Origin: a virus
IMG/VR virus record: IMGVR_UViG_3300017605_001118
Location: 1-64,000 of that record
DNA length: 64,000 bases
Direction: 5' to 3' (one strand)
In this document: piece by piece, positions 6,503 to 62,264 of the stretch
Layout of the letters: each line of letters begins with the position of its first letter
How positions within the stretch are numbered: position 1 is the first letter of the stretch
Notes under the pieces: model-generated
Database searches by the model: none
Told to the model about the DNA's origin: nothing
Seen by the model: the letters and a program-made list of their open reading frames with translations, nothing else
Position numbers and translations under genes: made by a program

Positions 6503-6907
6503 TTATCGGTGGTCGTAGCGGAAGTTTGCTGCCATGCAAGCCCGGACGCCTTCGGAGCAGTCGTAGATCTCGCGCTTCAGCCAGCTCAGGCCCTCGTCGG
6601 CGTCGATGGTTTCGGCGACGTCCGGGAACGCGGCGGCGAAGTGAGCCCAGTTGGCCGTGCGCTCAATCATCTTGGCTTCGAACCAGAGAAGGCTCTGGGC
6701 TTCCTTGAGCGCCAGCGTCCATCCGGTGACCTTCTTACAGCAGGTGCGGCCCACGGTCATCGTCTTGCCGGTCACGTCGTTGTGGACCGTGTAGACGTGC
6801 TTCAGGGTCCGGTCGCAGTGTTCGCAGATCCCGCCCGTGTGGCCGATGCCCTTGAGGCTCCAGTCCGAGGTGCCGATCTGAAGGCGGCGTTCGCCGATCT
6901 GCGTCAT
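6503..6907 (-). CDS. zinc-ribbon-like hypothetical protein
   Basis: 134 aa, ATG start. 'GGICEHCDRTLKHVYTVHN' supplies the first CxxC and 'VGRTCCKKVTGW' the second pair, so a zinc ribbon occupies roughly residues 26-60. A helical region with many aromatic residues follows. Unknown function. Transcribed from the copy of the repeated minus-strand promoter at 6947-6975 and ended by the hairpin at 6466-6498. Confidence 0.75.
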   Translation of the reverse strand: MTQIGERRLQIGTSDWSLKGIGHTGGICEHCDRTLKHVYTVHNDVTGKTMTVGRTCCKKVTGWTLALKEAQSLLWFEAKMIERTANWAHFAAAFPDVAETIDADEGLSWLKREIYDCSEGVRACMAANFRYDHR

Positions 6908-6946
6908 GTCTGCTCCCTGGGTTCCTTGTTCCTTGCCTACGACTCA

Positions 6947-6975
6947 ATTAAAGCATGGATTGTCAGTCGATGCAA
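6947..6975 (-). promoter_or_regulatory. family-A minus-strand promoter (copy 1)
   Basis: Read on the minus strand: TTGCAT, 17-nt spacer, TTTAAT, within a block of about 48 bp (6929-6976) that recurs at 7484, 40286, 40716, 41392 and 42119. The spacer contains a conserved CTGACAATC core. The gene 6503-6907 starts 40 bases downstream, which supports promoter function. Confidence 0.8.
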
Positions 6976-6978
6976 GGT

Positions 6979-7467: not shown

Positions 7468-7501
7468 GGGGTTCCTTCCGCAGTTCCTTGCCTACAACTC
7501 A

Positions 7502-7530
7502 ATTAAAGCATGGATTGTCAGTCGATGCAA
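7502..7530 (-). promoter_or_regulatory. family-A minus-strand promoter (copy 2)
   Basis: Minus-strand TTGCAT-N17-TTTAAT inside the shared block 7484-7531, nearly identical to copy 1. It drives the gene ending at 7012. The upstream face is divergent from the plus gene at 7571. A 'TTGTCA-N16-TACCCT' reading on the plus strand (7514-7541) could serve that gene. Confidence 0.8.
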
Positions 7531-7570
7531 GTTCGCTACCCTCAGTCCAGGACCCAACGGAAGGAACACG

Positions 7571-17956: not shown

Positions 17957-18844
17957 ATGGCAGGAGCACGGCCGATCGTGGCCGGGCCGACGTTCACCGC
18001 TCTGCCCTACGGTCTGTGGGACGCGGTGCAGAAGCCGTCCCCGGACCCTCACTGGCGGCAGGGAATCACGTACATCGACCGCTGCCCGGACCTGGCGACC
18101 ACGTACGACGAATGTCTGACGGTCACGGGAACCGGTGGCCCTCCGCCGGCCCCGCCCCTGAAGACAGACAACGTCGATCAACGGTTCCGGGGGGCGACCC
18201 CATTCACGGTGTACGCAGAGTTCGATTGCTCACCGATCGGACTGACCGACGCTGAACGGGCCGCGGTCGATGCTCTGGACCGCATGGAGTCCTGGCAGGT
18301 CGAACGCGTCTTCTCCACCGGGATGATTGACGGCATCACGGGTCAGTTCCCTCACCTGGCCGCCAACGCGGAAGTCCTTGACGCGCAAGGACTGGTTCTC
18401 CAGACTGCTGCCTCTGTCCTGGTCACCGGTTCCGGTGTCGACGTCGCGGACGGGCTCGGGCGTGTCGAGGCCGAACTGGCAGCCTGCTATGGGGGCCAGG
18501 GGCTTATCCACATCCCTGCTTCCGCGCTGCCGACGTTCGCAGCCTGGGGCCTCGCCGTGGTCCGGGACGGAGCGTTGTTCACCCCTCGGGGTAACCGGCT
18601 GGTGGTGGGCAACGGGTACGCCAACACCTCTCCGGCCGGCGTTGCAGCACCTGCCGGGTCAGCCTGGATTTACGCAACCGGGGCCATGTTCGGGTACCGC
18701 TCCGAGGTGTTCGTCACCCAGGCCGCGGAGTCGTTCGACCGGGCCGAGAACACGATGAAAATGCTTGCCGAGCGCACGTACTTGCTGGCGTTCTCTTGCT
18801 GCCATATCGCCGCCCTGGTCGACCTGGGCGTTCCCGTCACCTAG
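17957..18844 (+). CDS. putative minor head protein
   Basis: 295 aa, ATG with AGAAGGGAGGG upstream. It has Cys/Pro-rich N-terminal segments and a C-terminal 'FVTQAAESFDRAENTMKMLAERTYLLAFSCC' region. Resembles proteins that follow the capsid gene in some actinophages, but no specific role is known. The 60-nt gap after the capsid gene contains only a short hairpin-like GC stretch. Confidence 0.6.
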   Translation: MAGARPIVAGPTFTALPYGLWDAVQKPSPDPHWRQGITYIDRCPDLATTYDECLTVTGTGGPPPAPPLKTDNVDQRFRGATPFTVYAEFDCSPIGLTDAERAAVDALDRMESWQVERVFSTGMIDGITGQFPHLAANAEVLDAQGLVLQTAASVLVTGSGVDVADGLGRVEAELAACYGGQGLIHIPASALPTFAAWGLAVVRDGALFTPRGNRLVVGNGYANTSPAGVAAPAGSAWIYATGAMFGYRSEVFVTQAAESFDRAENTMKMLAERTYLLAFSCCHIAALVDLGVPVT

Positions 18845-22225: not shown

Positions 22226-23056
22226 ATGCCCGTCATCAACGATCAGCCCCCGGTACCCCCGGTACCAACGGATTCACAGGCGCCGTGCGCTGACTGGCCG
22301 ATCCAGTGGACCTGTGATGTCTCGACCGCGTCTCCTGCGGTGACGGCGCTGGCGGTGGCGTCGGCGACGGAGATCCTGTACGCCCTGTCAGGGCGCCGCT
22401 TCGGGCTCTGTGAGGTCACGTCCCGGCCCTGTCGGTACGACTGCTACTCGGAGCCGTTCTACACGTCCCTGGCCCCGTGGACCGGTGGTTCATACCCCCA
22501 ACCGGCTTTGATCGGGGGTTCCTGGTTCAACCTGACGTGCGGGTCCTGCGGCCGGGACTGCTCTTGTACCTCGATATCGGAGGTCATCCTTCCGTCCCCT
22601 GTGTTCCGGATCGTCCGGGTGATGATCGACGGAGGGATCGTTCCGACCGGGTCCTACCGGCTGGACGACAACCGGCGCCTGGTACGGACCGACGGCGGTG
22701 AATGGCCGCACTGCAACGACCTGACCCGGAACGACACCGAAGTCGGTACGTGGTCGATCACAGCCCTGTACGGGGAGCCGATTCCGGATTCGGCCCGTCT
22801 CGCCATGGGGGAACTGGCCTGTGAGATCGTCCGGGCGGCGACCGGGGGAGACTGCCGGCTACCCGCAGGAGTCAAGGAACTCGCCAGACAAGGGGTGACG
22901 ATCACATACCCCGACGTCGGTTCCCTGTGGCTGAAAGGAAGAACCGGCCTGTGGCTGGTGGACGCCTTCCTGTCCACATACAACCCGGCCGGTCTCACCC
23001 GTCGTTCCCGTACCTACTCCGTGGACCGGCCGCCGTTCCGCAGGGCCGGGACGTGA
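22226..23056 (+). CDS. head-to-tail connector (adaptor)
   Basis: 276 aa, ATG after GGGGAGGTG. Contains 'AVASATEILYALSGRRFGLCEV' and 'GELACEIVRAATGGDCRLPAGVKELARQGVTI', segments typical of phage adaptor proteins that ring the portal. Many Cys residues (CRYDCYSE, CGSCGRDCSC) are unusual. The last 43 bases overlap the end of the minus-strand alpha-CTD-like gene. Confidence 0.75.
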   Translation: MPVINDQPPVPPVPTDSQAPCADWPIQWTCDVSTASPAVTALAVASATEILYALSGRRFGLCEVTSRPCRYDCYSEPFYTSLAPWTGGSYPQPALIGGSWFNLTCGSCGRDCSCTSISEVILPSPVFRIVRVMIDGGIVPTGSYRLDDNRRLVRTDGGEWPHCNDLTRNDTEVGTWSITALYGEPIPDSARLAMGELACEIVRAATGGDCRLPAGVKELARQGVTITYPDVGSLWLKGRTGLWLVDAFLSTYNPAGLTRRSRTYSVDRPPFRRAGT

Positions 23057-23286
23057 GACACGCAGCGTTCCACGATCCGGTCAACGGACTTCGGACCGAG
23101 ACCCGTGACGTCCAGGAGGTAGTCCCGACCCCAGGCGTACAGCCGCATCAGGTCGGCCACGGTGTGCACTTTCTCCTTCCTGGCCAGGAAACCCGCAGCC
23201 CGGGTCGCCAGAACATCTCCGCCCAGGAACTCGATCAGCTCCGAGTGCTCTTTCAGAAGGTCGCGATCGGCTTTGTACATGGTCAT
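23014..23286 (-). CDS. small helix-hairpin-helix protein resembling RNA polymerase alpha-CTD
   Basis: 90 aa, ATG. Residues 40-75 ('HTVADLMRLYAWGRDYLLDVTGLGPKSVDRIVERC') follow the alpha-subunit C-terminal domain pattern, in which a 'GxGxKSxxxI' helix-hairpin-helix contacts DNA and regulators. The rest of alpha is absent. It could bias host polymerase or simply bind DNA. Overlaps the 3' end of the plus-strand connector gene by 43 bp, which makes convergent interference likely. Confidence 0.7.
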   Translation of the reverse strand: MTMYKADRDLLKEHSELIEFLGGDVLATRAAGFLARKEKVHTVADLMRLYAWGRDYLLDVTGLGPKSVDRIVERCVSHVPALRNGGRSTE

Positions 23287-23295
23287 TGGCCCCTT

Positions 23296-23688
23296 TCAGA
23301 CCAGGAAGACGTTCGCCGGGTCCACGCTGTCGTACCCGCCGGACCGCTGGCTCCGGATACTGAGCCGTCCGTTCGGAAACGCTTCTACGAAGGCGCCCGC
23401 GTACTCCCACACGTGCCCTTCGAGGTGCTCACGGACCTTGACGAAGTCACCCACGGCCAGCATCTCCGGATCAACGGGGTCCGCGGTAAAGACGGCCGGT
23501 GCCTTGCCCGCCCAGACGCTGACGACGCGCGCGCAGCCGAGGACCGACGCTTCGTCCCGGGCCAGGGTCTCCAGCTCACTGACGGAAGAACTTCTCGCCA
23601 CCGGGACCCAGCGGCCTTCGTCCCAGACCTGCACCCAGGCCTCGAAGGGGAGGATTCCGTCAACGGACAATTTGTGCAGGTCGGACAT
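23296..23688 (-). CDS. hypothetical protein (antisense cassette 4)
   Basis: 130 aa, ATG. Beta-rich with 'EAWVQVWDEGRWVPVARSSSVSELETLARDE' and 'VGDFVKVREHLEGHVWEYAG'. No family recognised. First gene of the two-gene minus-strand cassette. Upstream sequence shares the TTAATTAAAT region with the divergent plus gene at 23747. Confidence 0.65.
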   Translation of the reverse strand: MSDLHKLSVDGILPFEAWVQVWDEGRWVPVARSSSVSELETLARDEASVLGCARVVSVWAGKAPAVFTADPVDPEMLAVGDFVKVREHLEGHVWEYAGAFVEAFPNGRLSIRSQRSGGYDSVDPANVFLV

Positions 23689-23746: not shown

Positions 23747-24268
23747 ATGCCGCTGATCTCGGGAGTGCTGCGCTGGTACACGGTGGCGGAGGAGCTGCGG
23801 GCCGCGGCCTATGCGGCCATGGCCGGAAGCTCTGTGGGGGCGCCTGACAGGTCCTGCGTGGTTCCCGGGGCCATCGCCTGGGACGAGTGCGACTGCGGTC
23901 TCCTGGCCGTCTCTGTGGCCCGTACGTACTACTCCGACGACTTCCCTGCGGAGCAGACGGCGAAGGTGGGGGCAGGATCGTGCCGGCCTGCGTGGGATGT
24001 GGCGGAGATCAGGATCCAGGCGATCCGCTGCGCGCCTTCCCCCCAGGGGGAGGACCTGTCGCCCACCTGTGCCGCCCTGAACACCTCCGCTCAAGAGGTG
24101 GCCATCGATGCCTCCACGGTGAAGTCGGCCGTCTCTTTGAAGCTGTGCCAGATGGAGGAGTCGAACGAGGTCATCGACTACCTCATCCAGGGGCAGACCG
24201 TGGAGGGTCCCCAGGGCGGGTGTGTGGGCTCCGAACTCCGTGTTCTGGTGGCGCTGCCGGCGGCGTAG
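23747..24268 (+). CDS. putative neck/tail-terminator protein
   Basis: 173 aa, ATG with GGTGGGGAAG upstream. Cys-rich acidic beta protein ('DECDCGLLAVSVARTYYSDDF', 'SAVSLKLCQMEESNEVIDYLIQGQT'). Size and position after the adaptor and before the gp10-like gene fit a tail-terminator or stopper. No direct homology call. Ends just before the long palindrome. Confidence 0.6.
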   Translation: MPLISGVLRWYTVAEELRAAAYAAMAGSSVGAPDRSCVVPGAIAWDECDCGLLAVSVARTYYSDDFPAEQTAKVGAGSCRPAWDVAEIRIQAIRCAPSPQGEDLSPTCAALNTSAQEVAIDASTVKSAVSLKLCQMEESNEVIDYLIQGQTVEGPQGGCVGSELRVLVALPAA

Positions 24269-24270
24269 TC

Positions 24271-24889
24271 CGTTCAGTACCTGTCCCACTATGCCCCCGG
24301 TATGTACCTCTTTGTGAGGATGTAAAGCCGTTCCGAGCATGTCCCATTTCGTCTCTGGTACGTACTGCTTCCTCCTTCGGAGTCCCAAGTTACTGAGATG
24401 TCCGAGTCAAGATCGTTGTTTTTCGTTCCGAAGTGGGCCAAACCAGGACTTCAAGATGTCCCAGCTTGTCACAGAAAAGAGGGGTCGGGAGGGACGGAGG
24501 TAGCGGGAGGGAAGGTTCCAGGCACCTCCCACTCACGTAAAAACACACGTTTCCTAATACCCGTAAGTAACATATACGCAGAGTTACATGTTACGCTACA
24601 GTACGTATAACGTATTATTTTCAGCTCGTGCACCTAGGTTGTAGAAAACCTCCGTTACCTCCCTCCCTCCGGACCGTAGTTTTTCGTAGCCTAAACGGAC
24701 ATTTTGAGGTCCGGGTCTGTACCGATTCGGAACGAAAAACAACGATCTTGAACCAAGCTATTTCGTACATACCTGCGTGTCGGTTCCCTTACCCCCACAA
24801 ACCAGAGACAAAGTAGGACATGCTCGGAACGGCTCAGACTCCCCACAGACCAGGACAAACCAGAGACGAAGTGGGACATGCGTTGAACG
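24271..24889. repeat. 619-nt long imperfect palindrome in the tail operon (non-coding)
   Basis: The 820 bp between 24268 and 25089 hold no credible gene. Arms pair around 24580: 24271 with 24889 (CGTTCA...TGTCCCAC...CTGG), 24326-24359 with 24801-24834 (31 of 34 identical), 24407-24432 with 24726-24751 (26 of 26), 24440 region with 24720, and 24483-24506 with about 24660-24683 (21 of 24). The apex (24525-24640) is AT-rich. Within the arms, TGTCC-containing units recur about every 58 nt. If transcribed it would form a giant hairpin RNA. A cruciform, an origin-like element or a decayed mobile element are alternatives. Confidence 0.85.
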
Positions 24890-25088
24890 AGTCGTTCCGC
24901 TTCCCGGACGTCGATTCAAGGTCCTGAGACATCGCCGACACGCCTTTGGAGACCACGATCGACGGGGTTCCCTCCCCCCACCCCTCCGTCCAACCGGCAA
25001 AGGACACGCCCAGCCCTTTCAGAAAAGCCTGTCCCACCTGCGGAAAGATGTCTTTGGAGGGACGCTGGAGGGTACCCTCCGTGCGACG
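24890..25088. other. non-coding leader with GGAGGGTACCCTCC palindrome
   Basis: Continues the non-coding gap. It contains a perfect 14-bp palindrome at 25067-25080 that includes a TACCCT hexamer also seen near plus-strand starts at about 7536, 9681 and 25511. One further TGTCC unit lies near 25031. No open frame with codon character is seen. It may hold a promoter for the tail genes. Confidence 0.45.
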
Positions 25089-25481
25089 ATGGGCCCCGTG
25101 ACAACGGTGAGCGTGAACGTGGACCCGGGCCGTATCGCCCGGCTGATCCGCCTCCCAGGAGGGATCGTGGACCGGGATCTCCGACGCAGGGCGGACCGCG
25201 TAGCCGCTACAGCGCGGTCTCTGGCCCCGGGAAGCCTGAAGGGGGCCATCACCACCGAGCTGACCGGTTCGGGCCGTCAGAGGCACGCTAAGATCCTTCT
25301 CAACCACCCCGCAGCGGCCTTCGTCACCAAAGGGACCCGGCCGCACGTGATCCGCCCCCGCACCGCCCGGGCACTGAAGTTCACCGGGTCCGGCGGACAG
25401 AACGTCTTCGCCTCCAAGACCAACCATCCGGGGACTCGACCGAATCCGTTTATGGTCCGGGCTCTGCGGGCGGCCGGCTAG
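25089..25481 (+). CDS. tail completion protein, HK97 gp10-like
   Basis: 130 aa, ATG at 25089; the ribosome site is weak, so a GTG at 25098 is possible. Positively charged with 'AATARSLAPGSLKGAI', 'KGTRPHVIRPRTARALKF' and 'TNHPGTRPNPFMVRALRAA', the usual gp10-family endings. Acts at the head-tail joint. First gene after the long non-coding gap. Confidence 0.78.
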   Translation: MGPVTTVSVNVDPGRIARLIRLPGGIVDRDLRRRADRVAATARSLAPGSLKGAITTELTGSGRQRHAKILLNHPAAAFVTKGTRPHVIRPRTARALKFTGSGGQNVFASKTNHPGTRPNPFMVRALRAAG

Positions 25482-39390: not shown

Positions 39391-39450
39391 CGTCTGAGTA
39401 CCTCGCAGGATGCACGGAGGTGAGGCCGTGCACCCGGGTGGTGATCAGGC
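39391..39450 (-). repeat. 60-bp intergenic repeat with hairpin (copy 1)
   Basis: Nearly identical to 46971-47030: both contain a TGCACGG/CCGTGCA stem and lie between the stop of one minus-strand gene and the ribosome site of the next. It may be a transcription attenuator or RNA processing element that fixes the ratio of flanking genes. Confidence 0.7.
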
Positions 39451-39618
39451 GTTGTGGATCGTGACGCGTCCCTGGGCGGGAACGCGGTAGCAGTCGTACG
39501 ACGTGTAGACGCGGACTTCGGGACCGTCCTGCACGGCCGAGGACACGGAGTGCATTTCACCGTTGATGGTGACCACGTCCCCGGGCTGGAGCTGATTGGC
39601 GCGGATCTGGAGTGTCAT
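39445..39618 (-). CDS. small beta-rich protein
   Basis: 57 aa, ATG with GAAAGGAACC. 'LQPGDVVTINGEMHSV' is a short beta-barrel (KOW/Hint-like) opening. Unknown. Last three codons fall in the repeated intergenic element. Confidence 0.6.
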   Translation of the reverse strand: MTLQIRANQLQPGDVVTINGEMHSVSSAVQDGPEVRVYTSYDCYRVPAQGRVTIHNA

Positions 39619-39631
39619 GGGTTGGTTCCTT

Positions 39632-39910
39632 TCAGGCCGGGGTCTCGGTGCGGGCTGCGTACAGCGCTTCACGGTGCTGGTTCCGGGCTTCTTTTCGGGT
39701 GGACGAAAAGATCTGGGTAAAGTCGACGACGTAAGGGCCGTAAGTGCGGTACTCGAACTCATGACCCGGGAGGGTCTTCCCGGCGTGCTCCATGTCGGCG
39801 CTCTGGTCAACCACGACCGTGACGTAGCGACGGAATCCTGTCTTGGCCGTGGACACGAGCAGGTCCACGGTGTCGAACTTCACGGGCGTTTGGTAGAGAA
39901 CCCTGGGCAT
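39632..39910 (-). CDS. hypothetical protein
   Basis: 92 aa, ATG with GAAAGGAACC. Mixed alpha/beta with aromatic 'YRTYGPYVVDFTQIF'. No recognisable family. Confidence 0.6.
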   Translation of the reverse strand: MPRVLYQTPVKFDTVDLLVSTAKTGFRRYVTVVVDQSADMEHAGKTLPGHEFEYRTYGPYVVDFTQIFSSTRKEARNQHREALYAARTETPA

Positions 39911-39924
39911 GTCGTCGGTTCCTT

Positions 39925-40263
39925 TCAGGCCGCGAGGCGCAGGGCGTCGGCGGCGAGCTTGTAGGCGGGGACGCGGGGGCGGTAGGTCTTGGCGGCTGCG
40001 GCGACCTGTTCCGGGGTGTAGCGAGCAACGTCGCGCATCCGGCGGCCAGCGTGGACCCGGCCCGGGGTGGCGGTGAGGTTCAGCTTGGCGGCGTTGCGAC
40101 GGAGCGAGCCGGCCACGGTGCGGGCCTCCCTCGGACCGAGGCCGGCGGCCATGGCGTGGGTGGCAAGGGACGCCGACCCCTTCCGGGCAATCTTCGCTGC
40201 GGCGCGGTTGGTGCGGACACGGGCCTTGAGGGCGCTGCGCTCGGTGCGGGCCTTGGCGTTCAT
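39925..40263 (-). CDS. basic helical protein
   Basis: 112 aa, ATG with CAGGGAG upstream. Strongly basic and Ala/Arg-rich ('ALKARVRTNRAAAKIARKG', 'LRRNAAKLNLTATPGRVHAGRRM'), so nucleic-acid binding is plausible. First gene of the unit driven by promoter copy 4 at 40304. Confidence 0.65.
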   Translation of the reverse strand: MNAKARTERSALKARVRTNRAAAKIARKGSASLATHAMAAGLGPREARTVAGSLRRNAAKLNLTATPGRVHAGRRMRDVARYTPEQVAAAAKTYRPRVPAYKLAADALRLAA

Positions 40264-40303
40264 TTCGTTCTCCCTGCGTTCCTGGTTCCTTGCCTACGAC
40301 TCA

Positions 40304-40333
40304 ATTAAAGCATGGATTGTCAGTCCGGTGCAA
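40304..40333 (-). promoter_or_regulatory. family-A minus-strand promoter (copy 4)
   Basis: Minus-strand TTGCAC-N18-TTTAAT with the CTGACAATC core, 40 bases upstream of the gene starting at 40263. Confidence 0.8.
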
Positions 40334-40336
40334 GGG

Positions 40337-40692: not shown

Positions 40693-40733
40693 CGGTTCCT
40701 CTCCTTCGTCGTCCGTTCCTTGCCTACGACTCA

Positions 40734-40763
40734 ATTAAAGCATGGGTTGTCAGTTCAACACAA
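40734..40763 (-). promoter_or_regulatory. family-A minus-strand promoter (copy 5)
   Basis: Minus-strand TTGTGT-N18-TTTAAT with CTGACAACC core; the transcript leader down to the start codon is conserved among copies 5-7. Confidence 0.8.
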
Positions 40764-40791
40764 GGGGCCCGATCCAAGTGGACCGGGCCCC
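40764..40791 (-). terminator. hairpin terminator
   Basis: 12-bp GGGGCCCGATCC/GGACCGGGCCCC stem (one weak pair), loop AAGT, after the gene 40806-41372. Confidence 0.75.
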
Positions 40792-40805: not shown

Positions 40806-41372
40806 CTAGTGCTCCATCACCGAGGCCCAAGGTCCGTACAGGGTGTTGAAGTGCTCTTCGGTGATCAGGTCCTTGACGATCAGTGCGAGAACCGCATCGC
40901 TGACGGAATCCCGCACGATGCGAGGAGTGACCTCCCAAACGGCCTCGTTCGTGGGGATTGCGAGATCTTCCCCGAAGGGCCAGGCAGCCTCCCAGGCGGA
41001 GAACCGCACCAATCCCTCCGCGCTCTCCTGAGCGACAAGGAGAGCCGCCTGTTCTTCGGAATCTATGCGGGACGCTCGCTCGATCAGCTCCGTTACCTGT
41101 TTGCCCCGCGGACCGAAGACCCGGTGCGCATCGATCTCACGGACCACGCGAAGGACCGGAGGGTTCGTCAGACCTGGGTTGATTAGGGCGGATTCCACCT
41201 CGAACAGCCGACACGGCCAACGGCCTTCGGACAAGGCCCGCGGCGGGGATTCGAAGAGGGACTGGTACTCGGACGGGAAGGTCCCCCCGCTGAACAGTGC
41301 CGCCGCATAGTTGACTCGGCCGGTGAGGAAATCGACTCCGTCCGGGCTGGTCGTCTTGTAGTACGCCTTCAC
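40806..41372 (-). CDS. hypothetical protein; C-terminal paralogue of the 53873-54166 protein
   Basis: 188 aa, GTG after GGAGAGAAC. The C-terminal half, including 'VTELIERAS' and the ending 'DLITEEHFNTLYGPWASVM', is shared with the smaller protein at 53873-54166 ('DLLSEEHFNTLYGPWASVM'). N-terminal 90 residues are extra. Function unknown; single-gene unit under promoter copy 6. Confidence 0.7.
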   Translation of the reverse strand: MKAYYKTTSPDGVDFLTGRVNYAAALFSGGTFPSEYQSLFESPPRALSEGRWPCRLFEVESALINPGLTNPPVLRVVREIDAHRVFGPRGKQVTELIERASRIDSEEQAALLVAQESAEGLVRFSAWEAAWPFGEDLAIPTNEAVWEVTPRIVRDSVSDAVLALIVKDLITEEHFNTLYGPWASVMEH

Positions 41373-41410
41373 GTTCTCTCCTTCGTCGTCCGTTCCTTGC
41401 CTACAGCTCA

Positions 41411-41440
41411 ATTAAAACACAGATTGTCAGTTCAACACAA
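41411..41440 (-). promoter_or_regulatory. family-A minus-strand promoter (copy 6)
   Basis: Minus-strand TTGTGT-N18-TTTAAT with the CTGACAATC core. Confidence 0.8.
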
Positions 41441-41468
41441 GGGGCCCGGTCCACTTGGACCGGGCCCC
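41441..41468 (-). terminator. hairpin terminator
   Basis: Perfect 13-bp GGGGCCCGGTCCA stem with a 2-base loop after the gene 41490-42098. Confidence 0.8.
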
Positions 41469-42098: not shown

Positions 42099-42136
42099 GT
42101 TCTCTCCTTCGTCGTCCGTTCCTTGCCTACAGCTCA

Positions 42137-42165
42137 ATTAAAACACAGATTGTCAGTCGATACAA
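42137..42165 (-). promoter_or_regulatory. family-A minus-strand promoter (copy 7)
   Basis: Minus-strand TTGTAT-N17-TTTAAT with CTGACAATC core, directly after the end of the translocase-side membrane gene pair. Confidence 0.8.
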
Positions 42166-42168
42166 GTC

Positions 42169-49232: not shown

Positions 49233-51302
49233 TCAACCGCCCAGCGAAGCCAACCGCTCCTGGCCGATCTTCACCAGTGACTGAAGCCGCTTCTCGCTCA
49301 GACCTGCCGCAACGGCAGCCTGGAACAGGGACGACAGCGCGGCCCTGGAACCGGCCTGCGCGAAGCGCTCCTCCCAGGTCGGTTCCGGCACGGAGACGGG
49401 TTCCCCCAGCATCTTGAAGCCGACCTTCCGGGACCGCCGCTTACGGACCGTGCCGGACAGGGCAGCGTCCTCCCAGCCCCCGTCCAGCGGCACCTCATAC
49501 AGCGTGCACACCGCCTTCCCGTATGGCATGTGCATCACGATGCCGATGTCCGTGCGGACCTCAGGCCCCGGCTCCCATCGTTCCTCGCCCGGGTTCCACA
49601 GGCCCGAGGCGTTGACGCCGTGGGCGTACAGAGCGAGTTGGATCGCGATCTCGAGCTGTTTGTAGTCGAGGCTTCCGGGTGTGTTATGTGTGGGGATCAT
49701 CCGATCTCCGCACAGGTACGTGCGCGTTGAAGAATCCACAGCGATGCACGCGGTGTCGACATCGGGGCCTGGGTCCACAGAGACGATCAACCTCCGACGG
49801 GAGCGCACGAGAGGCTTCTTTGAAGCGGCTGCCTGGTCCGCCTTCCTGGGAAGACGGAAGGGATTCAGGTCCACCGGAGTGAACTCGACGTGATAGCACA
49901 TCACCTGCTTGCCAAACCCTTTGGTCCGGACTCCCGCCAGACAAGGTCGCTGACCCAGGCTCAACAGGAGTTCCTCGGTTTGAAGAGCCAGAGCCTTATC
50001 TGTGCTGTAGAACACGGCCGTCTTCCGAGCCGTGTTCCAGGTGCCATCCGTGTCCAGGAGACCCTGGAGAAGTCGCAACCTCTGAGGCACGGAAGCCCGT
50101 AGGTAAATTTCCGGAATGTGCTTGTTGTCCAAAACGCCGAGTTCGCGGAGCTGCGTCACAAGGCCCAGGACAGTCCGCGTCACGCACTTATCGGAGTGGC
50201 ATTTCTTGGGCAGCCCGAGGCGGTGTCCGTCTGACTCCAGGATCTCGAACAAATCGGAGCCTTTGGTGATCGAACCTGCCTTCGCAGTGCCGTCCCCCAG
50301 CCAGCACCCCAAAAGGTACGGGTCCACGGGCAGGTCCGCGTCAGGAAGGTTCAGTGGACCTGCCACGGGGACTCGGTGATGTTTTTGTCCTTGAGAGCTC
50401 ACGAGAGTGGCTCTCACTTCTTCGATGGACTTAGCCGTAGGGGTTCCTGGACGAAGCCCTGCCGCGGTCCACCAGATGTGCTCCGTGTCGCAAACTACGG
50501 AGGAGCCATCGTCAAACCTGACGATGTAGGTACCGATCCTCTTGGCCTCCGATTTGGCCGTCACCCGACAAACCTCACCGTACGCGTCGAATACCCGATC
50601 CCCCACCACGACGTCCTTCATGGTCGTCCACCCCGAAGGGGTTGGGATCCGTTCGGTAAGCGCGAGGCCCTTCACATCCCCGATGGCGTAGGTCCCGTCA
50701 GCAAGTCGGAGGACCCGGTCCAGCTTGCCGGCCACGCCCAGCTCGGGGATCGCAGTGACCCGTTCGATCAGGTGGGGGAAGACCTCAACCCCACTCGCCT
50801 TCAGAGCCGCCCGGTAAGCGAGGACATCTGGGCGTTCTTTGACCGGGGCCCGGTCCAGGGTGCCGCCTCCGTCCAGGACTTCGGTGTGCGTGTGCATCCG
50901 GGTGCCCCGGTCCGCGGCCTCTTCGCCGCCGGCGGACCGCTTCAGCTTCTTGACGATCCGGTTCAGCTTTTCCCGGTCCGTCTTCACGTCCAGGCCAGTT
51001 GCCTCGGCCACCAGGTCCGGCCGCAGCGTCGCCCCCACCAGTGCCATACGCAGCTCCCACTCCGACAGGGCGAACCTGTCGCTGAGCGTCGGAGCGAAGT
51101 TGGTGGCCCGTGTCCAGGACTGCCACTTCCCCGTTTCCGGGTGAGGGAGCCAGTACCGGCCGTTCTTCATCAGCGGCTGCTTGTCCGGTTGCATGAGAAG
51201 GTCGTCTACGGGGTCGACAACCCTCTCATGCTCCCCGGAACGACACAGGACGCAGTGCACCGTTTCGGGACCGCTGTGTTTGATGCGGGCTGGGTCGGTC
51301 AT
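49233..51302 (-). CDS. RecB/Cas4-like PD-(D/E)XK nuclease interrupted by an intein
   Basis: 689 aa, ATG in an ATGA overlap. Extein N part (1-211): 'RGTRMHTHTEVLDG', 'ELGVAGKLDRVLRLADGTYAIGDVK'. Extein C part (541-689): 'TPGSLDYKQLEIAIQLALYAHG'. Rejoined, the motif reads GDVKT, so the intein lies in the catalytic D-x-K site (D209, K211). The spliced product would be about 360 aa. Such nucleases recombine or trim phage DNA. The intein must splice for activity. Confidence 0.88.
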   Translation of the reverse strand: MTDPARIKHSGPETVHCVLCRSGEHERVVDPVDDLLMQPDKQPLMKNGRYWLPHPETGKWQSWTRATNFAPTLSDRFALSEWELRMALVGATLRPDLVAEATGLDVKTDREKLNRIVKKLKRSAGGEEAADRGTRMHTHTEVLDGGGTLDRAPVKERPDVLAYRAALKASGVEVFPHLIERVTAIPELGVAGKLDRVLRLADGTYAIGDVKGLALTERIPTPSGWTTMKDVVVGDRVFDAYGEVCRVTAKSEAKRIGTYIVRFDDGSSVVCDTEHIWWTAAGLRPGTPTAKSIEEVRATLVSSQGQKHHRVPVAGPLNLPDADLPVDPYLLGCWLGDGTAKAGSITKGSDLFEILESDGHRLGLPKKCHSDKCVTRTVLGLVTQLRELGVLDNKHIPEIYLRASVPQRLRLLQGLLDTDGTWNTARKTAVFYSTDKALALQTEELLLSLGQRPCLAGVRTKGFGKQVMCYHVEFTPVDLNPFRLPRKADQAAASKKPLVRSRRRLIVSVDPGPDVDTACIAVDSSTRTYLCGDRMIPTHNTPGSLDYKQLEIAIQLALYAHGVNASGLWNPGEERWEPGPEVRTDIGIVMHMPYGKAVCTLYEVPLDGGWEDAALSGTVRKRRSRKVGFKMLGEPVSVPEPTWEERFAQAGSRAALSSLFQAAVAAGLSEKRLQSLVKIGQERLASLGG
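49683..50669 (-). other. class-3-like intein with LAGLIDADG endonuclease
   Basis: Residues 212-540 of the host protein (329 aa). Starts 'GLALTERIPTPSGWTTM' with Gly, not Cys or Ser, at position 1. Block B 'CDTEHIWWTA' supplies Trp (277/278), C531 lies in 'TYLCGDRMIPTHN' and T538 is in PTHN: the WCT set that defines class 3 inteins. Ends HN followed by Thr. Two DOD motifs, 'LLGCWLGDG' (330-338) and 'LLQGLLDTDG' (411-420), mark a homing endonuclease. Confidence 0.85.
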
Positions 51303-52242: not shown

Positions 52243-53880
52243 TCACTCCTTCAGAAATCGGTCGATCTTCCTTGACGCCTTGACCACGGAGATCAAGTCC
52301 CCCATGTCGCCCTTCCGGATCCCGTCCGGGACCTGGATTCGTAGGTACCCGGCTTGTTTGAGCTGGGCTTCGCTTGCCGGGTCGCGGCGCCACTTGGCCT
52401 TGCGCCGGGTCAGGACGCCGCCCAGTTCCTCAGCCTCCGCTTCGGCCCAGGCTTTGGCCGTGTCCAGGGGCTGGGGTGATCCATTGAGCTTCGTCCACCC
52501 GCCCTGCGGCGGGGCCAAGGCGATGACGTATCCGCCTTTCTCGGGCCACAGGAGAACCTCTCCGGCCGTTCCGCAGGGGATGAACCAGATCCCACTCTCC
52601 GTCTGGAGCCACGCGGACGACGATGCGGCGAACAGCTCCAGGGACTTCCCAGAACCGGTCAGCTTCAGTTCAACGGCTTCCTTTTCACAGGTGCACCGCA
52701 GCCGTTTATTTCCACAATTCCCGCAGAGGCAGACACAGGGCAGCCGGCGGCAGTCTTTACAGGGCTTGGGATCCGGGAACAGTCCTTCTTCCAGGTCGAT
52801 CAGCGTCCGCAGCCGGTTGTCCTGGGACGCACCCACCAGGTCCAGAATCAAAGCGCTGGTCTTACCGGGGTAAGGGCGGAGTACGCGTCCAATAATTTGG
52901 GTGTAAAGAGGCTGGGACTGTGTGGGGCGGGCCATGACCAGGACTTCCGCGTGCGGTGCATCCCAGCCTTCTGTAAGGACCATACAATTGCACAGTACAC
53001 GGATCTTCCCGGCTTCGTAGTCGGCGAAGATCCGGAGTCGTTCCTCCCGGGGAGTTTCACCGGAGACGACGGCCGCAGAGACGCCACGAAATTCCAGTTC
53101 CTTCATCGCCTCGTGGGCCGTGGCCACGGTGGGGGTGAACACGACGCCGGGCTTTCCGTTGCCGTGTTCCACGTAGGCGGCAGCGGCGACGGCCATGGCG
53201 CCGGATTCCGTCAGCTCCTCCCCGAGGGCGCCCACCGCGTAGTCGCCGGCGGACTTCCTCAGCTTGGACAGGTCCAGTCCGTCGACCGCCACGGAGATCC
53301 CCGTCGGTTCGACCAGGTACCCGTTGCGGATGCCCCACAGGATCGACTTGGTATAGACGACGTCGTCCACCACCGTGCCGAGTCCCTTGCCGTCGCCGCG
53401 GGCCAGGGTCGCGGTGACCCCCAGCATCCGGGCCCCGTCCTCGGCGAAACAGCCCAGCCCTTCAAGGACCCCTTTGTACGTTTTGCTCAGAAAATGATGT
53501 ACCTCGTCGGCAATGACCAGACCGACCGGGCCCGCGTTCAGGAGCCGGTTCATCCGGCGCTTCCTGGCCAGGGTCTGCACCGAGGCGACGACGACGTCGG
53601 CGTCCACTTCGTCGTCGCCCGCCTTCACCTTGCCGGTGATCAGCTCAGGGGCGACGGACCGCACTTTGGTGATCGCTTGGTCCACCAGTTCGTCGCGGTG
53701 GGCCAGGATCACAACGCGCTGCCCCGGATGGCCCTGCATGTACTCCCGGGCGGTATGGGTGAACATGACCGTTTTTCCTAGACCCGTGGCCATTACAACT
53801 ACCGGCCGCTGCATCCCCTCCGCCCACGCCGACGTCACCGCGTCGATGGCTTCACGCTGGTAAGGACGCGGTTCAAGCAC
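52243..53880 (-). CDS. SF2 DNA helicase with zinc cluster
   Basis: 545 aa, ATG. Motif I ATGLGKT 31-37, motif II DEVHH at 125-129, motif III 'TATLARGD', motif V/VI 'TEGWDAPHAEVLVMARPTQSQPLYTQIIGRVLRPYPG'. A CKDC...CVCLCGNCG...CTC cluster after the helicase core is a likely zinc-binding insert. C-terminal domain of unknown role. Probable DNA unwinding/remodelling in replication or recombination. Confidence 0.9.
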   Translation of the reverse strand: MLEPRPYQREAIDAVTSAWAEGMQRPVVVMATGLGKTVMFTHTAREYMQGHPGQRVVILAHRDELVDQAITKVRSVAPELITGKVKAGDDEVDADVVVASVQTLARKRRMNRLLNAGPVGLVIADEVHHFLSKTYKGVLEGLGCFAEDGARMLGVTATLARGDGKGLGTVVDDVVYTKSILWGIRNGYLVEPTGISVAVDGLDLSKLRKSAGDYAVGALGEELTESGAMAVAAAAYVEHGNGKPGVVFTPTVATAHEAMKELEFRGVSAAVVSGETPREERLRIFADYEAGKIRVLCNCMVLTEGWDAPHAEVLVMARPTQSQPLYTQIIGRVLRPYPGKTSALILDLVGASQDNRLRTLIDLEEGLFPDPKPCKDCRRLPCVCLCGNCGNKRLRCTCEKEAVELKLTGSGKSLELFAASSSAWLQTESGIWFIPCGTAGEVLLWPEKGGYVIALAPPQGGWTKLNGSPQPLDTAKAWAEAEAEELGGVLTRRKAKWRRDPASEAQLKQAGYLRIQVPDGIRKGDMGDLISVVKASRKIDRFLKE

Positions 53881-54166
53881 GCTCCATCACCGAGGCCCAC
53901 GGACCGTACAGGGTGTTGAAGTGCTCTTCGCTGAGCAGGTCCCGCGCCAGCAGCGCGGTGACCACCGGCCAGATCGCCGGGCCCACTTCGCGGTGCGCCT
54001 GCTTCCAGAGCTCACTCCGGCCGGTTACGCGGATGATCGAACCGGCCGCGCCCAAAGCTTCCTCCCAGGCGGTACCTCCGGCTACGGCCCAGGCGACCCT
54101 CACCCCGTGGTGTTCGTCGTCCGTCAGCCGGGACGCCTTCTCGATCAGTTCTTCGACGGTCGTCAT
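53873..54166 (-). CDS. small protein paralogous to the 40806-41372 C terminus
   Basis: 97 aa, ATG. Ends 'DLLSEEHFNTLYGPWASVMERA', sharing the whole C-terminal pattern of the larger protein. It overlaps the helicase start by 8 bases. First gene of the leftward operon that starts at the divergent control region. Unknown. Confidence 0.65.
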   Translation of the reverse strand: MTTVEELIEKASRLTDDEHHGVRVAWAVAGGTAWEEALGAAGSIIRVTGRSELWKQAHREVGPAIWPVVTALLARDLLSEEHFNTLYGPWASVMERA

Positions 54167-54464: not shown

Positions 54465-55199
54465 GTGCAATACATGGGAGGAAAGGCCAAGATCGCTCGA
54501 CGCCTCGTGGCCGCGATCTTGGACGACACAGCCAATCGACTGAACTGGTTCGAGCCCTTCGTGGGCGGTGGAAACGTCCTCGAACAGGCCGCGCCCCACT
54601 TCACGCGGTCTGTCGCCATGGACGCGCACGAGGATTTGATCCTCATGTGGTCCGCAGTCAACGGCGGGTGGGGTCCGCCCGAGTTCGTCTCCAAAGATCT
54701 GTACGCGGAGCTGCGTCACGCCGCACCTTCGGCGCTTCGCGGGTACGCCGGCTTCGCCGCGTCCTTCGGGGGCAAGTGGTTCGGAGGGTACGCCGCCGGC
54801 CACGTCCGGCCCGGAGAGAGACAGACCATCGCAGCGGGTTCCCGGAGAGTGGTCCTCCGCCAATCCTCCGTGATCCGAGCTAACTCGGTCGTCTTCCGGC
54901 ACGGACCTTTCGGGTCCCTGACGCCTCCCGCGGGGACGGTTGTCTACTGCGACCCTCCTTACGCGGGGACCACGCGGTACAACGGGATGGCCCCGTTCGA
55001 CCACGCTCTGTTCTACAAGACCTTGGGCATCTGGGCTGACTCGGGGCGCGACGTCTACGTCTCCGAGTACGCGATTCCGGACGAGGTGCCCCACTTGATC
55101 CTTTGGTCTGGGGAACAGCGGAATGGGTCCCTCAAAAAAACCGCCAACTCTCGGGTAACGGTCGAGAAGCTGTTCAAGATCACAGGAACCGAGGGCTGA
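54465..55199 (+). CDS. second D12-class DNA adenine methyltransferase
   Basis: 244 aa, GTG two bases after the upstream stop. 'VQYMGGKAKIARRL' opening, EPFVGGGN at 30-37, DPPY at 163-166; shares 'RGYAGFAASFGGKWFGGYA' with the minus-strand enzyme. Distinct target-recognition region, so a different site specificity is likely. Adjacent to the replication gene. Confidence 0.92.
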   Translation: MQYMGGKAKIARRLVAAILDDTANRLNWFEPFVGGGNVLEQAAPHFTRSVAMDAHEDLILMWSAVNGGWGPPEFVSKDLYAELRHAAPSALRGYAGFAASFGGKWFGGYAAGHVRPGERQTIAAGSRRVVLRQSSVIRANSVVFRHGPFGSLTPPAGTVVYCDPPYAGTTRYNGMAPFDHALFYKTLGIWADSGRDVYVSEYAIPDEVPHLILWSGEQRNGSLKKTANSRVTVEKLFKITGTEG

Positions 55200-55201
55200 C
55201 C

Positions 55202-58200
55202 GTGGCAACCGAGACGCCGACACTCACCCCCGAACACCGCGAGTACCTGAACAACGCGGCCATCACCGACCCCATCATCGAGGCCGCCGGCGTCTACTCC
55301 ACCGATGACGGGATCATGTTCCCGTACCGCGACGGGAACACCGAGGTTCAGTACTTCCGCCACGACGACCCCCCGGAGGGAACGCCCAAGTACCTCGGGC
55401 CCAAGGACATCTCCCCCATCTTCAACGTGCTCCGCGAGCACGGAGACCACGGACCGGTCCTCGTCGTGGAAGGTACGAAGCAGGCGCTCAGTTGCGGATC
55501 CTGGGCGCCCCCGGAGTACTCCGTGTACGGCATGAACGGGTGCTGGGGATGGACGAAGGCAGATCGGGACCCCCTGGAGGGGAGAACGGTCTTCGTCGTC
55601 CTGGACAAGGACGCGCAGGAGAACCCGGACGTCTACAACGCGGGCGCATCCCTGGCCGAAGACCTGCGGTCCATGGGATCGACAGTTCTGTTCGTCCGGC
55701 TCCCCGTCCGGGGGAAGGAAGGTCTGGACGACTGGTTGGCAGCCACAAAGGCGGACCGGCGCACCGAACGCTTCGCTCTCCTGATCGCCGGCGCCAAGCC
55801 GAAACCGGCCGACCGGAAGCCGGACGCGAAGAAAAAGAGCAGGGAGCTGCGCACTGCGGAGGAGTCCGCGTCGATGGTGGAGACGGCCGCGGAACGGGGC
55901 ATGAAGCCCATCGCCGTGAACCGAGGCCTGCTCATCGACGTGATCGACCAGATCACCGATGGGCTTCTGACCCGCGACGGAACAACCCTGTTCAACCACG
56001 GCGGGGCCCTGTCGGAGTTCGACCGCGATGAGCACATGATGGTGCAGGTGACCGAGGGCCGGTTCCGGGATGTCCTTGTACAGACCTGCCTCACTGTGAA
56101 CGTGAAAGACGACGGATCGATGGTGTCCGGCTGGCCCGACGGCAACACGATGAAGGCCGTGTCCTCCCGGGCGAAGCGGTTCGTGAAGGTCCGCCGCATC
56201 ATGCGTGCGCCGTTCGTCCGTGCGGACGGCACGATCTGCTCAACACCCGGCTACGACGTTTCTTCATCGACTTTTTTGGACATCGAAGAAGACTTCAAGA
56301 TCAACGTCCCGGACGAACCAACCGCAGACCAGGTCAAGGAAGCCGTGTCCCTTCTCTTGGACGAGTGGCTGTGTGACATGGCGTTCCCGGAAGACTCCGA
56401 CCGGGCCAACGCCCTCGCCATGCTGCTGACCCCCTTCGTCCGGGACAGCGTCAACGTCGTTCCACTTGCCGTCGTCACAGGTCTTCAGATGGGGTCGGCG
56501 AAGAACCTTCTAGCGGACTGCTGTTCCCTGGTCTTCCAGGGGACCGTCACCCAGCCGGGTCTTCTCCCCGAGAACGACGACAACGAGGTCCGGAAGCAAG
56601 TCACGTCGATCCTGCGGAAGGCGCCGGCGGTCATCGTCTTCGATGAAACGCACCTGATCGAAAGCAAGGCTCTGGCCGGGGTCCTCACGGCGGAAACCTG
56701 GACGGACCGCCTCCTAGGAGTCTCGGACCAACTCGCACTCCCCAACCAGGCTACGTGGATCTCGCTGGGCAACAACGTCGCCGTCAACGGGGACATGCGC
56801 CGCCGGTACTACCCGATCCGGCTGCACCCCACCGACCCCAATCCGCAGGACAAGCCCACGTCCGCCTTCCGGCACCCGGACCTCAAGGCGTGGACGGAGG
56901 AGAACCGCTCCGAGCTGCTCAGCGCGGTACTGACGCTGATCCGGGCGTGGCACGTGGCCGGGAAGCCGTACACACCCGGCTCGTTCTCCTTCGGGTCTTT
57001 CGAGCGGTGGCAGAGAACAGTCGGGGGAGTCCTTCAGATCGCGGGTGTCGAAGGCTTCCTGGGCGGACTCCAGGAAGCCCGGGACGAAGGCGACTTCACC
57101 ACCGGCTGGTGGATCGCTCACTTGGCCTGGCTGCTGAAGACCTTCGGCGGAGCCGAGTTCATCGTCCGCGCCGTGAAGGCCAGGGCCCTGGCTGCCGACG
57201 ACTTCGAAGCGCCCCCCGGCAAAGACCTCGCCGACCCCTCCGAGCCGAACTGGGCCAAGAGGACCGGGCAGGAGTACGCCCGGATCAAGGGCCGCTGGTT
57301 CGGGGAAACCCGGTTGGTCAAGGTCGGCCTGGGCCACGGGTCCACGGTCAAGTGGCGCGTGGACGTCCGCGGGGAGGAGAAGGAACCGCCCCCTTTCGTT
57401 CAGCCGGATCCTGATCCACCGACCCCCGACGAAGGAACCGAGGAAGCTGTGGAGACGACGTTCAAATCTGTCGGGTTCGACCTGGAGACCGCCGGCGCTG
57501 ATGAGCTGTATCTCGGACGGCACGAGGGTCCGTTCATCCGGCTGGGGGGGTCCATCGACGCCGCCGGAGTCTCCCAGACGTCCCCGTCGTCCCAGGATCT
57601 GATCCGGACCCTGACCGACGCCGACGAGATCTACGGGCACGGCATCTTCCGTTTCGACATCCCGGCGCTGGCCCGCCATAAGGGAACCAGCGCCGACTTC
57701 GACGCCCTCGCCGACAAGGCCGTGGACACGATCATCAACGCCCGCCTGCTGGACCCGCCGGCAGCGAAGGGGGCAAACGTCAGCTACACCCTGGACGCGG
57801 TGGCGGCCCGGCTGGGGGTCGCACGGAAGACGGATGACATCAAGGCCCTCGCCGACAAACACGGGGGTTTCGACAAGATCCCCGTGGACGACCCGGACTA
57901 CGTCTCCTATCTGGAAGGCGACCTGGTCTCCACCCGTGCGGTGTATGAGGCGCAGAAGCCTCTTCTCAGGGACCGCGGCCTGGACGACTACGCGGCCCGC
58001 GAAATGCGGATTGCCGCGATCCAAAACCGCATGACCTTCAACGGCTTCCGGATCGACGTACCTCTCCTCGAGGAGCGCGTCCGGGCCGAAGAGAACAAAC
58101 GGCAGGAAGCCCTCCGCACACTCGCCGACACGTACGGCGTACCCCTGGACAAGGAAGTGACCCGGGGCCGGGGAAAGAACAAGGTGACGTTTCGGGAACC

Positions 58201-59254
58201 GCTCCTTTCCCCGTTGGCCTCCAACGCGGGCAAGGCCGCCCTGATCGCGGCCTTCAAGGCGGCCGGTGCGGACTGCTACCCGCCGACCGCCACGGGGGGT
58301 CTGGCGACGTCCTCGGAGGCTCTGGGGGAGGGGTTCTACTTCCTCGGCAAGGGTCAGAAGATGCGGAAGGTCCCCGGCATGCTGCGAGCTTATCCGGATC
58401 TTCCCGGGGTGCGGGACATCTGCGAACTGGTCTCCGTCGTGACGGGCGTAACGGCCAAGTACGCGGAGATCCAGAAGTACGTGGTCAAAGGGCGCGTGTA
58501 CCCGGGAATCGGGGAAGACCAGGCTTCCGGTCGGTGGGCTATGACCCGCCCGTCCATCACCAACCTGGGCAAGCGTGGCGGCAAAGTGGTCCAGCGCGCG
58601 GTCTTCCTCCCCGAGGAAGGGCACGTCATCATTGCCGCAGACTTCTCCCAGGTCGACATGCGGGCGGTCGCCGGCCTGTGCCAGGACCCCTTGTACATGG
58701 CGATGTTCGAGCCCGGCAAAGACATGCACACGGAGATCGCGGCCATGATGGGCGTCTCTCGGGACGCAGCCAAACCGTTGAACCACGGAGCCAACTACGG
58801 TCTGGGCGCCAAGGCGATGATCCTTCAGGGTCACGACCCCGAGCTGGTGGCCAAGTTCTTCGAGGTGATGTCCCGGTTCAAGGCCAAGGACATCTGGACC
58901 GAAGACGTCCGGAGGAGGGCTACCTCCGGTCTGCTGTACAACAGCTTCGGCCGCCCGATGCGCTGCGACCCGAAGCGGGCGTACACCCAGGGACCGGCTC
59001 TCATGGGCCAGGGCGAGGCCCGGGACATCATGACGAAAGGTCTACTGCGGGCGGTGAAGTTGCTGCCGGACATCCGCGACATGCTGCGTGTCGTAGTCCA
59101 CGATGAGGCCGTCAACTCCGTACCTATTGACAGGGTTGAGGAGGTTACGTCCGTTCTCCACGAGGCGATGACCTTCACCCATAACGGTGTCCAGATCATC
59201 GCGGAGATCTCCGCGCCGGGGTCGGACTGGGCCGCGGCCTACGGCGCCAAGTGA
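55202..59254 (+). CDS. TOPRIM-ATPase-exonuclease-polymerase A fusion
   Basis: 1350 aa, GTG two bases after the upstream stop. Residues 85-165: TOPRIM (E90 in VVEGTKQA, D135/D137 in VVLDKDA). Residues 420-545: helicase-like ATPase with degenerate Walker A 'GLQMGSAKN' (427-435), Walker B 'AVIVFDE' (476-482) and Arg-rich 'NGDMRRRYYPIRL'. Residues 755-910: 3'-5' exonuclease (D760/E762, D819). Residues 925-1350: DNA polymerase family A with motif A DFSQVDMR (D1147), motif B KPLNHGANYG (1191-1200) and motif C HDE (1300-1302). A nearly complete replisome in one chain. Confidence 0.92.
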   Translation: MATETPTLTPEHREYLNNAAITDPIIEAAGVYSTDDGIMFPYRDGNTEVQYFRHDDPPEGTPKYLGPKDISPIFNVLREHGDHGPVLVVEGTKQALSCGSWAPPEYSVYGMNGCWGWTKADRDPLEGRTVFVVLDKDAQENPDVYNAGASLAEDLRSMGSTVLFVRLPVRGKEGLDDWLAATKADRRTERFALLIAGAKPKPADRKPDAKKKSRELRTAEESASMVETAAERGMKPIAVNRGLLIDVIDQITDGLLTRDGTTLFNHGGALSEFDRDEHMMVQVTEGRFRDVLVQTCLTVNVKDDGSMVSGWPDGNTMKAVSSRAKRFVKVRRIMRAPFVRADGTICSTPGYDVSSSTFLDIEEDFKINVPDEPTADQVKEAVSLLLDEWLCDMAFPEDSDRANALAMLLTPFVRDSVNVVPLAVVTGLQMGSAKNLLADCCSLVFQGTVTQPGLLPENDDNEVRKQVTSILRKAPAVIVFDETHLIESKALAGVLTAETWTDRLLGVSDQLALPNQATWISLGNNVAVNGDMRRRYYPIRLHPTDPNPQDKPTSAFRHPDLKAWTEENRSELLSAVLTLIRAWHVAGKPYTPGSFSFGSFERWQRTVGGVLQIAGVEGFLGGLQEARDEGDFTTGWWIAHLAWLLKTFGGAEFIVRAVKARALAADDFEAPPGKDLADPSEPNWAKRTGQEYARIKGRWFGETRLVKVGLGHGSTVKWRVDVRGEEKEPPPFVQPDPDPPTPDEGTEEAVETTFKSVGFDLETAGADELYLGRHEGPFIRLGGSIDAAGVSQTSPSSQDLIRTLTDADEIYGHGIFRFDIPALARHKGTSADFDALADKAVDTIINARLLDPPAAKGANVSYTLDAVAARLGVARKTDDIKALADKHGGFDKIPVDDPDYVSYLEGDLVSTRAVYEAQKPLLRDRGLDDYAAREMRIAAIQNRMTFNGFRIDVPLLEERVRAEENKRQEALRTLADTYGVPLDKEVTRGRGKNKVTFREPLLSPLASNAGKAALIAAFKAAGADCYPPTATGGLATSSEALGEGFYFLGKGQKMRKVPGMLRAYPDLPGVRDICELVSVVTGVTAKYAEIQKYVVKGRVYPGIGEDQASGRWAMTRPSITNLGKRGGKVVQRAVFLPEEGHVIIAADFSQVDMRAVAGLCQDPLYMAMFEPGKDMHTEIAAMMGVSRDAAKPLNHGANYGLGAKAMILQGHDPELVAKFFEVMSRFKAKDIWTEDVRRRATSGLLYNSFGRPMRCDPKRAYTQGPALMGQGEARDIMTKGLLRAVKLLPDIRDMLRVVVHDEAVNSVPIDRVEEVTSVLHEAMTFTHNGVQIIAEISAPGSDWAAAYGAK

Positions 59255-62204: not shown

Positions 62205-62212
62205 ACCTCCCA

Positions 62213-62263
62213 GGACACACAGAACCGCCCCGCAGACTGTCTGCGGGGCGGTTCTGTGTGTCC
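62213..62263. terminator. 24-bp perfect hairpin terminator
   Basis: 24-bp uninterrupted stem with a 3-nt loop (CTG) between the convergent replication operon and minus-strand operon; it functions in both directions. Confidence 0.9.
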
Positions 62264-62264
62264 T

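Follow-up and report, generated by a model that had tools for sequence, protein, structure and literature searches.

A long palindrome in the neck region of an actinophage genome has a second, inverted copy, and the two may form a pair of origin-type sites

The long imperfect palindrome that lies among the late structural genes of this actinophage had at first been described by itself. Searching the whole virus record showed that it is one of two: a second element, inverted and 91% identical over 632 nt, was found at genome positions 65053-65696, just outside the window (the 64,000-nt stretch of DNA analysed here). The two are designated copy A and copy B, and no third copy was found in the genome. 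Our preferred reading, to which we give about even odds, is that copies A and B form a matched pair of origin-type sites, recognised by a replication initiator in the manner of oriL and oriR of phage SPP1. Sites for a replication initiator would fit the observations described below because of the inverted box arrays, the presence of two to three copies, their placement by replication and late genes, their free orientation and their matching within each genome.

Two matched copies of a palindromic element

The virus record comprises 67,331 bases, most of which are covered by the window. Its first 141 bases are identical to its last 141, which suggests a complete, circular genome of 67,190 bp. 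When the genome was compared by BLAST with its reverse complement, the palindrome came out at exactly 24271-24889, where the preliminary description had seen it, with a self-complementarity of 63% over 629 columns (173 bits, E ~3×10−43). Folding of the region, which that description had proposed as a check, gave −392 kcal/mol for 24200-25090, compared to −297 +/−10 for dinucleotide shuffles (z = −9.1). None of 20 shuffles reached the native energy, and the fold is therefore beyond chance. The block of copy A in which 26 of 26 arm positions match is TCAAGATCGTTGTTTTTCGTTCCGAA.

Comparison with copy B extended the element to 24271-24902, its right end being at 24902 rather than 24889. The left end of copy A misses about 14 nt relative to copy B, which shows the true ends, AAGCGGAA(C/T)GACTCGTTCA on both sides. 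The start of copy B coincides with the stop codon of a 195-aa gene (phrog_3678, unknown function), whose sequence and position suggest a terminase-small-subunit-like product. That the palindrome is due to chance or to misassembly is barely credible. It is true that a single metagenomic record is at hand, but the fold energy speaks against chance, equivalents exist in cultured, sequenced phages (see below), and an artefact is unlikely because the record looks circular and the two diverged copies share identical runs of at most 76 nt, which is below the 141-nt end overlap.

The palindrome takes up most of a non-coding gap at 24269-25097, which also holds a spacer and a repeated flank (the M leader, see below). 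This gap was delimited by PHROG assignment of the flanking genes and their alignment with relatives, and has no coding signal. Its 829 nt run from the upstream stop at 24268 to the start of the next gene at 25098. The upstream neighbour is a conserved gene for a 173-aa connector-region protein (23747-24268, plus strand, phrog_810, supported by relatives), and the downstream one encodes a Neck1/tail completion-like protein (25098-25481, plus strand, phrog_5), with a start deduced from the alignment of relatives. The site had been assigned to a tail operon; it belongs to the neck, or head-tail connector, region, and the tape measure gene lies further downstream. One-way read-through of the flanking genes, also supposed at first, is uncertain, because a gene pick based on codon composition favours minus-strand ORFs at 23014-23688, just upstream. 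These ORFs, which separate the adaptor gene from the connector-region gene that follows, are possibly a moron inside the structural operon.

A coding gene within the element was considered and rejected: no frame open in both copies had a coding pattern or an excess of synonymous changes, in line with the initial failure to see a credible gene. The preliminary view of the segment as non-coding, non-random and probably under selection was upheld.

The left arm (24271-24476, plus strand) carries four degenerate (A/C)TGTCC boxes, at 24282, 24340, 24399 and 24457, with a spacing of 58-59 nt. The right arm (24697-24902, minus strand) carries inverted boxes and ends in the terminal inverted repeat TGAACGAGTCGTTCCGCTT (24884-24902). 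In each arm, degenerate boxes built on TGTCC thus recur about every 58 nt; these TGT(A/C)C boxes are not better conserved between A and B than the rest of the arms. The AT-rich apex (24537-24640) is a candidate DNA unwinding element, as judged from its AT content and low divergence. No other stretch of the 67-kb genome is as AT-rich as the apices of A and B, whether 60, 100 or 150 nt are considered, and the two apices differ at 11 of 231 positions, versus 48 of 401 for the arms (p = 0.003). The GC content of the element is lower than that of the genome.

The M leader is a 67-nt flank (25014-25080, plus strand) that is repeated beside copy B (65831-65897) with 90% identity, and ends in GGAGGGTACCCTCC, a sequence occurring only twice in the genome. 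It follows both copies, 18-29 nt ahead of the next gene, and its orientation is the same at both sites although the element is inverted, meaning that a simple joint duplication of element and flank does not account for the two sites. The M leader is possibly a leader of the next gene or, as we infer against an empty sigma-70 scan, its promoter; neither sigma-70 promoters nor intrinsic terminators were detected when the gap was scanned. Beyond copy B, at genome positions 65798-65830 (2799-2831 of locus L008), a ninth, weaker repeat unit (E = 5×10−4) faces the M leader, with which it could form a small fold-back.

Some other features of the genome were recorded in passing. Upstream of minus-strand genes there is a family of nearly identical sequences of 40-77 nt, probably early promoters or leaders used in common (6904-6977, 7483-7531, 40260-40335, 40715-40771, 40811-40887, 41392-41452, 42118-42167 and 53881-53957). 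A 689-aa ORF on the minus strand (49233-51302) contains a LAGLIDADG-like domain at residues 407-452, possibly an intein or homing endonuclease in a conserved gene. Finally, a 53-nt palindrome, 98% self-complementary, is found at 62212-62264 between a plus- and a minus-strand gene, and is probably a two-way terminator.

Palindrome sets in related phages

The survey of relatives covered 80 IMG/VR loci encoding a related major capsid protein. In most relatives, the same two flanking genes are 10-40 nt apart, and the terminase-like gene is closely followed by other genes, so both sites of A and B appear as insertions compared to relatives. It had been proposed that relatives lacking the gap would speak against the element. 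At the exact spot most of them do lack it, but the polymerase-bearing relatives carry equivalent palindromes nearby. The sequence of the element was absent from 50 relative records, in which BLAST returned only chance-level matches, and homologues were found neither in annotated phages or plasmids nor, using exact motifs, in IMG/VR. Five 18-mer matches in GTDB were discarded as chance-level, all being in proteobacterial contigs without the surrounding element.

In all 13 relatives found to have a homologue of the family A polymerase, palindrome and repeat scans revealed a palindrome in the linker that precedes the polymerase domain. This pol-side copy is either within that domain or a short way upstream of it, and its sequence reappears in the neck/tail region, ahead of the gene named down2 in 7 relatives and after the gene named g720 in 6. 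Several of the 13 are close pairs, such as G051/G052 and G028/G040, and the independent cases are therefore fewer than 13. The pol-side copy sits inside a continuous primase-polymerase frame in three relatives (G001, G002 and G031), and near the end of the upstream ORF in four others. Copies are found in either orientation. The palindromes are matched within each genome and unrelated between lineages: GAACAGGGTGAACAGGG and GGTCCGGGTGGTCC are two such families, while GGTACC boxes characterise G051 and G056, and TGTACC boxes G053-G055. The cores of the palindromes in G001 and G002 show no unusual AT richness. Palindromic distant repeats are otherwise rare in the genomes of polymerase-bearing relatives, according to a sliding-window scan. 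The relatives' palindromes measure 85-160 nt, with boxes 9-10 nt apart, compared to 640 nt and 58 nt for the studied element; given these differences in length and box spacing, the tie between them is one of anatomy and neighbourhood, not of sequence.

A few further repeats were noted. A repeat in G041 (26768/38749) was not counted as a pair, its positions being unrelated. In L013/G004, a contig without the polymerase region, a 144-nt palindrome, 78% self-complementary, is present just before down2 (18470-18613 in the locus). Intergenic arrays of CTGTCC/GGACAG boxes, some of them palindromic, occur in relatives at sites that differ from those of the pol and tail palindromes (L151 489-823 in G007; L132 1-240 and the end of L134 in G002; G028 39435-39634; G040 52622-52821).

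Cultured phages carry such sets as well. The Streptomyces phages TP1604, Xkcd426 and phiSAJS1 (Woodruffvirus), which are related to the studied phage through capsid and polymerase, each have three intergenic palindromes of 230-360 nt: one after the connector genes in the neck region, a second in a different gap among the late genes, and a third ahead of the primase. The palindromes are 71-95% alike within a genome, and only short stretches are common between genomes. All nine contain inverted GGTCAG/CTGACC boxes, and none is annotated in the phage records consulted.

A common control criterion, a palindrome of at least 60 nt overlapping a distant repeat, was then applied to all genomes. Of the 18 genomes that encode the polymerase, 17 scored, as did 1 of the 11 that lack it (Fisher p ~6×10−6). 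This contrast serves as a guide only, because shared ancestry is ignored and because the palindrome scored in phiAsp2, G007, G040 and G054 is a different one. The 11 relatives without a homologous polymerase are mostly without matched palindrome sets.

In the studied phage, the candidate partner of the sites is a 1383-aa protein (55103-59254, plus strand) that combines a primase (DUF3854), an ATPase-like module and a family A DNA polymerase. It has a Walker B-like FDETH motif. Its middle module, searched against Pfam and PDB sequences for a helicase identity, gave no match, and no P4-type helicase is detectable in it. No palindrome is present in its pol linker. The protein matches a phiAsp2 protein at 46% identity; phiAsp2 has no matched palindrome set, the only palindrome there, at 33697, being formed by divergent leaders. 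Beside the pol-side palindrome, G001 and G030 encode a P4-family primase-helicase (TIGR01613, D5_N, DUF5906). In relatives, the GC skew reaches its minima 3-4 kb ahead of the pol-side copy, close to the gene strand switch, and is indecisive; the skew of the studied genome gave no clear signal.

DNA site, RNA hairpin or mobile element

The preliminary description had put forward, as its lead idea, a giant double-stranded hairpin in the transcript, while also listing a replication or cruciform site and a mobile element. A structured RNA of this kind, be it an ncRNA, an antiterminator, an antisense RNA or an RNase III substrate, would account for the very stable fold; moreover, as the copies are inverted, transcripts of A and B would be mutually complementary. 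The comparison of A and B did not bear this out. Among the arm pairs, a single one was kept by a two-sided change, whereas 18 were broken and 9 were kept by one-sided changes. Where positions vary in both arms, the changes are mostly crosswise between copies rather than compensating within one copy. The expected pattern of compensatory base changes is thus missing between A and B, which is weak evidence with two sequences only. The suggested search of RNA families was likewise silent at the gap: a scan with Rfam 15 at gathering thresholds found only a tRNA in the window. In addition, the relatives' palindromes occur in either orientation, some of them inside translated genes. We do not favour selection for a hairpin of double-stranded RNA, and consider a structured RNA very improbable. 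The lack of compensation between A and B, the in-gene copies in three relatives and the occurrence of either orientation favour a site acting at the level of DNA.

Such a DNA site could also control transcription, the palindromes being operator- or enhancer-like blocks placed before transcription units; a regulator encoded by the phage would bind them, and the M leader would be the promoter. The intergenic copies lie between transcription units, upstream of plus-strand genes, the position of the M leader ahead of the next gene is kept at both sites, and matched sites within a genome would suit any common DNA-binding protein. We nevertheless find this unlikely, if not strikingly so: it does not predict the association with the polymerase, the gap holds no sigma-70-like promoter, and in G001, G002 and G031 the copy is embedded in a continuous primase-polymerase frame. 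Less probable again is a non-autonomous mobile element, similar to a MITE or a palindromic element, of which two copies with terminal inverted repeats inserted beside stop codons. Terminal inverted repeats, absence of coding and more than one copy are all observed, as in MITEs; both copies have the common end AAGCGGAA(C/T)GACTCGTTCA, both sites are empty in relatives, the GC content is below that of the genome, and the element is inverted relative to its flank. Against this, no direct repeat indicative of a target duplication was seen beside copy B, copy A being without its left end, and it is the apex, not the ends, that is better conserved. No related copy turned up in any collection searched. 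As for a related autonomous transposon with matching ends, the end pattern was sought in IMG/VR, where it is absent, while the search of bacterial genomes used an internal motif. Random insertion would also not be expected to give 2-3 copies in each relative, at positions that recur despite differing sequences.

We return to the pair of origin-type sites. The phage initiator, either the primase-helicase or the ATPase module, would bind the boxes and melt the apex. One copy would start replication; the copy in the late region would be a second origin, or else a fork block bound by the initiator that promotes the switch to concatemer replication, and the M leader would restart transcription downstream. 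Two matched sites with repeated boxes and an AT-rich region are present, as in SPP1-type origins, and one of them occupies a non-coding gap of the late region. The 13 relatives have a site within or next to the presumed initiator gene; the studied phage does not, its copy B following the terminase-like gene. This location of copy B, the pol linker without a palindrome, the failure to detect a P4-type helicase, the case of phiAsp2, which has a matching replication protein but no set, the greater length and wider box spacing of the element, the ordinary conservation of the boxes, the indecisive GC skew and the unexceptional AT content of the cores in G001 and G002 are points against the paired-origin proposal.

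On a broader and more tentative level, the sets might represent a new class of phage DNA element, consisting of 2-3 long palindromes by replication and late neck/tail genes, whose sequence is replaced in concert within a genome while they stay palindromic and keep their position and copy number. Such sets would form a multi-part system of origin and fork control coevolving with the primase-polymerase initiator, enlarged and relocated in the studied phage. No description of such palindrome sets was found in the literature searched, in a search that was not exhaustive. Phages with more than one origin are known. To our knowledge, the replication start sites of most actinophages have not been mapped, and the matched palindromes provide precise candidates, among them the three unannotated copies that each of three culturable Streptomyces phages carries. 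Concerted replacement within a genome flags non-coding DNA sites served by a common trans-acting factor, with no prior annotation required, and so offers a route to candidate origins in uncultured phages. If true, a paired origin would explain the persistence of 0.8 kb of non-coding DNA among late structural genes.

Comparison with known systems

Rickettsia palindromic elements can lie in frame inside genes, as do some of the relatives' pol-side copies, but they are scattered and present in many copies, whereas the phage palindromes number 2-3 per genome at recurring places. In actinophages, the mycobacteriophage elements MPME1 and MPME2 are short mobile elements with inverted repeats; MPME1 measures 439 bp, has short inverted repeats and occupies variable sites (PMC3029335). 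The studied element differs from MPME1 in being palindromic over its whole length and in having no coding-like frame.

Among replication origins, oriL and oriS of herpes simplex virus contain an AT-rich palindrome, are present in multiple copies, and one lies by the DNA polymerase gene. The likeness in palindrome, copies and polymerase placement concerns an unrelated virus, and is an analogy only. In phage P4, ori and crr are two separate cis regions with common short repeats, used by the alpha primase-helicase. The relatives resemble P4 in encoding P4-family primase-helicases, and in both cases cis regions share repeats; the P4 regions, however, are not long palindromes, and the studied protein is without a detectable P4-type helicase (TIGR01613/D5).

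The closest described case, by analogy, is SPP1. Its oriL lies inside gene 38 and its oriR in a segment interrupting the late gene order; both consist of direct repeats and an AT-rich unwinding region and are bound by gp38, and oriR has been proposed to stall forks and to trigger concatemer replication (PMC6316719, PMC3485210). The copies studied here differ in being long palindromes and in the position of copy B after the terminase-like gene, and no sequence relation is claimed. They share with SPP1 the presence of two sites per genome made of repeats and an AT-rich region, and in the relatives the placement of the pair matches that of SPP1 closely.
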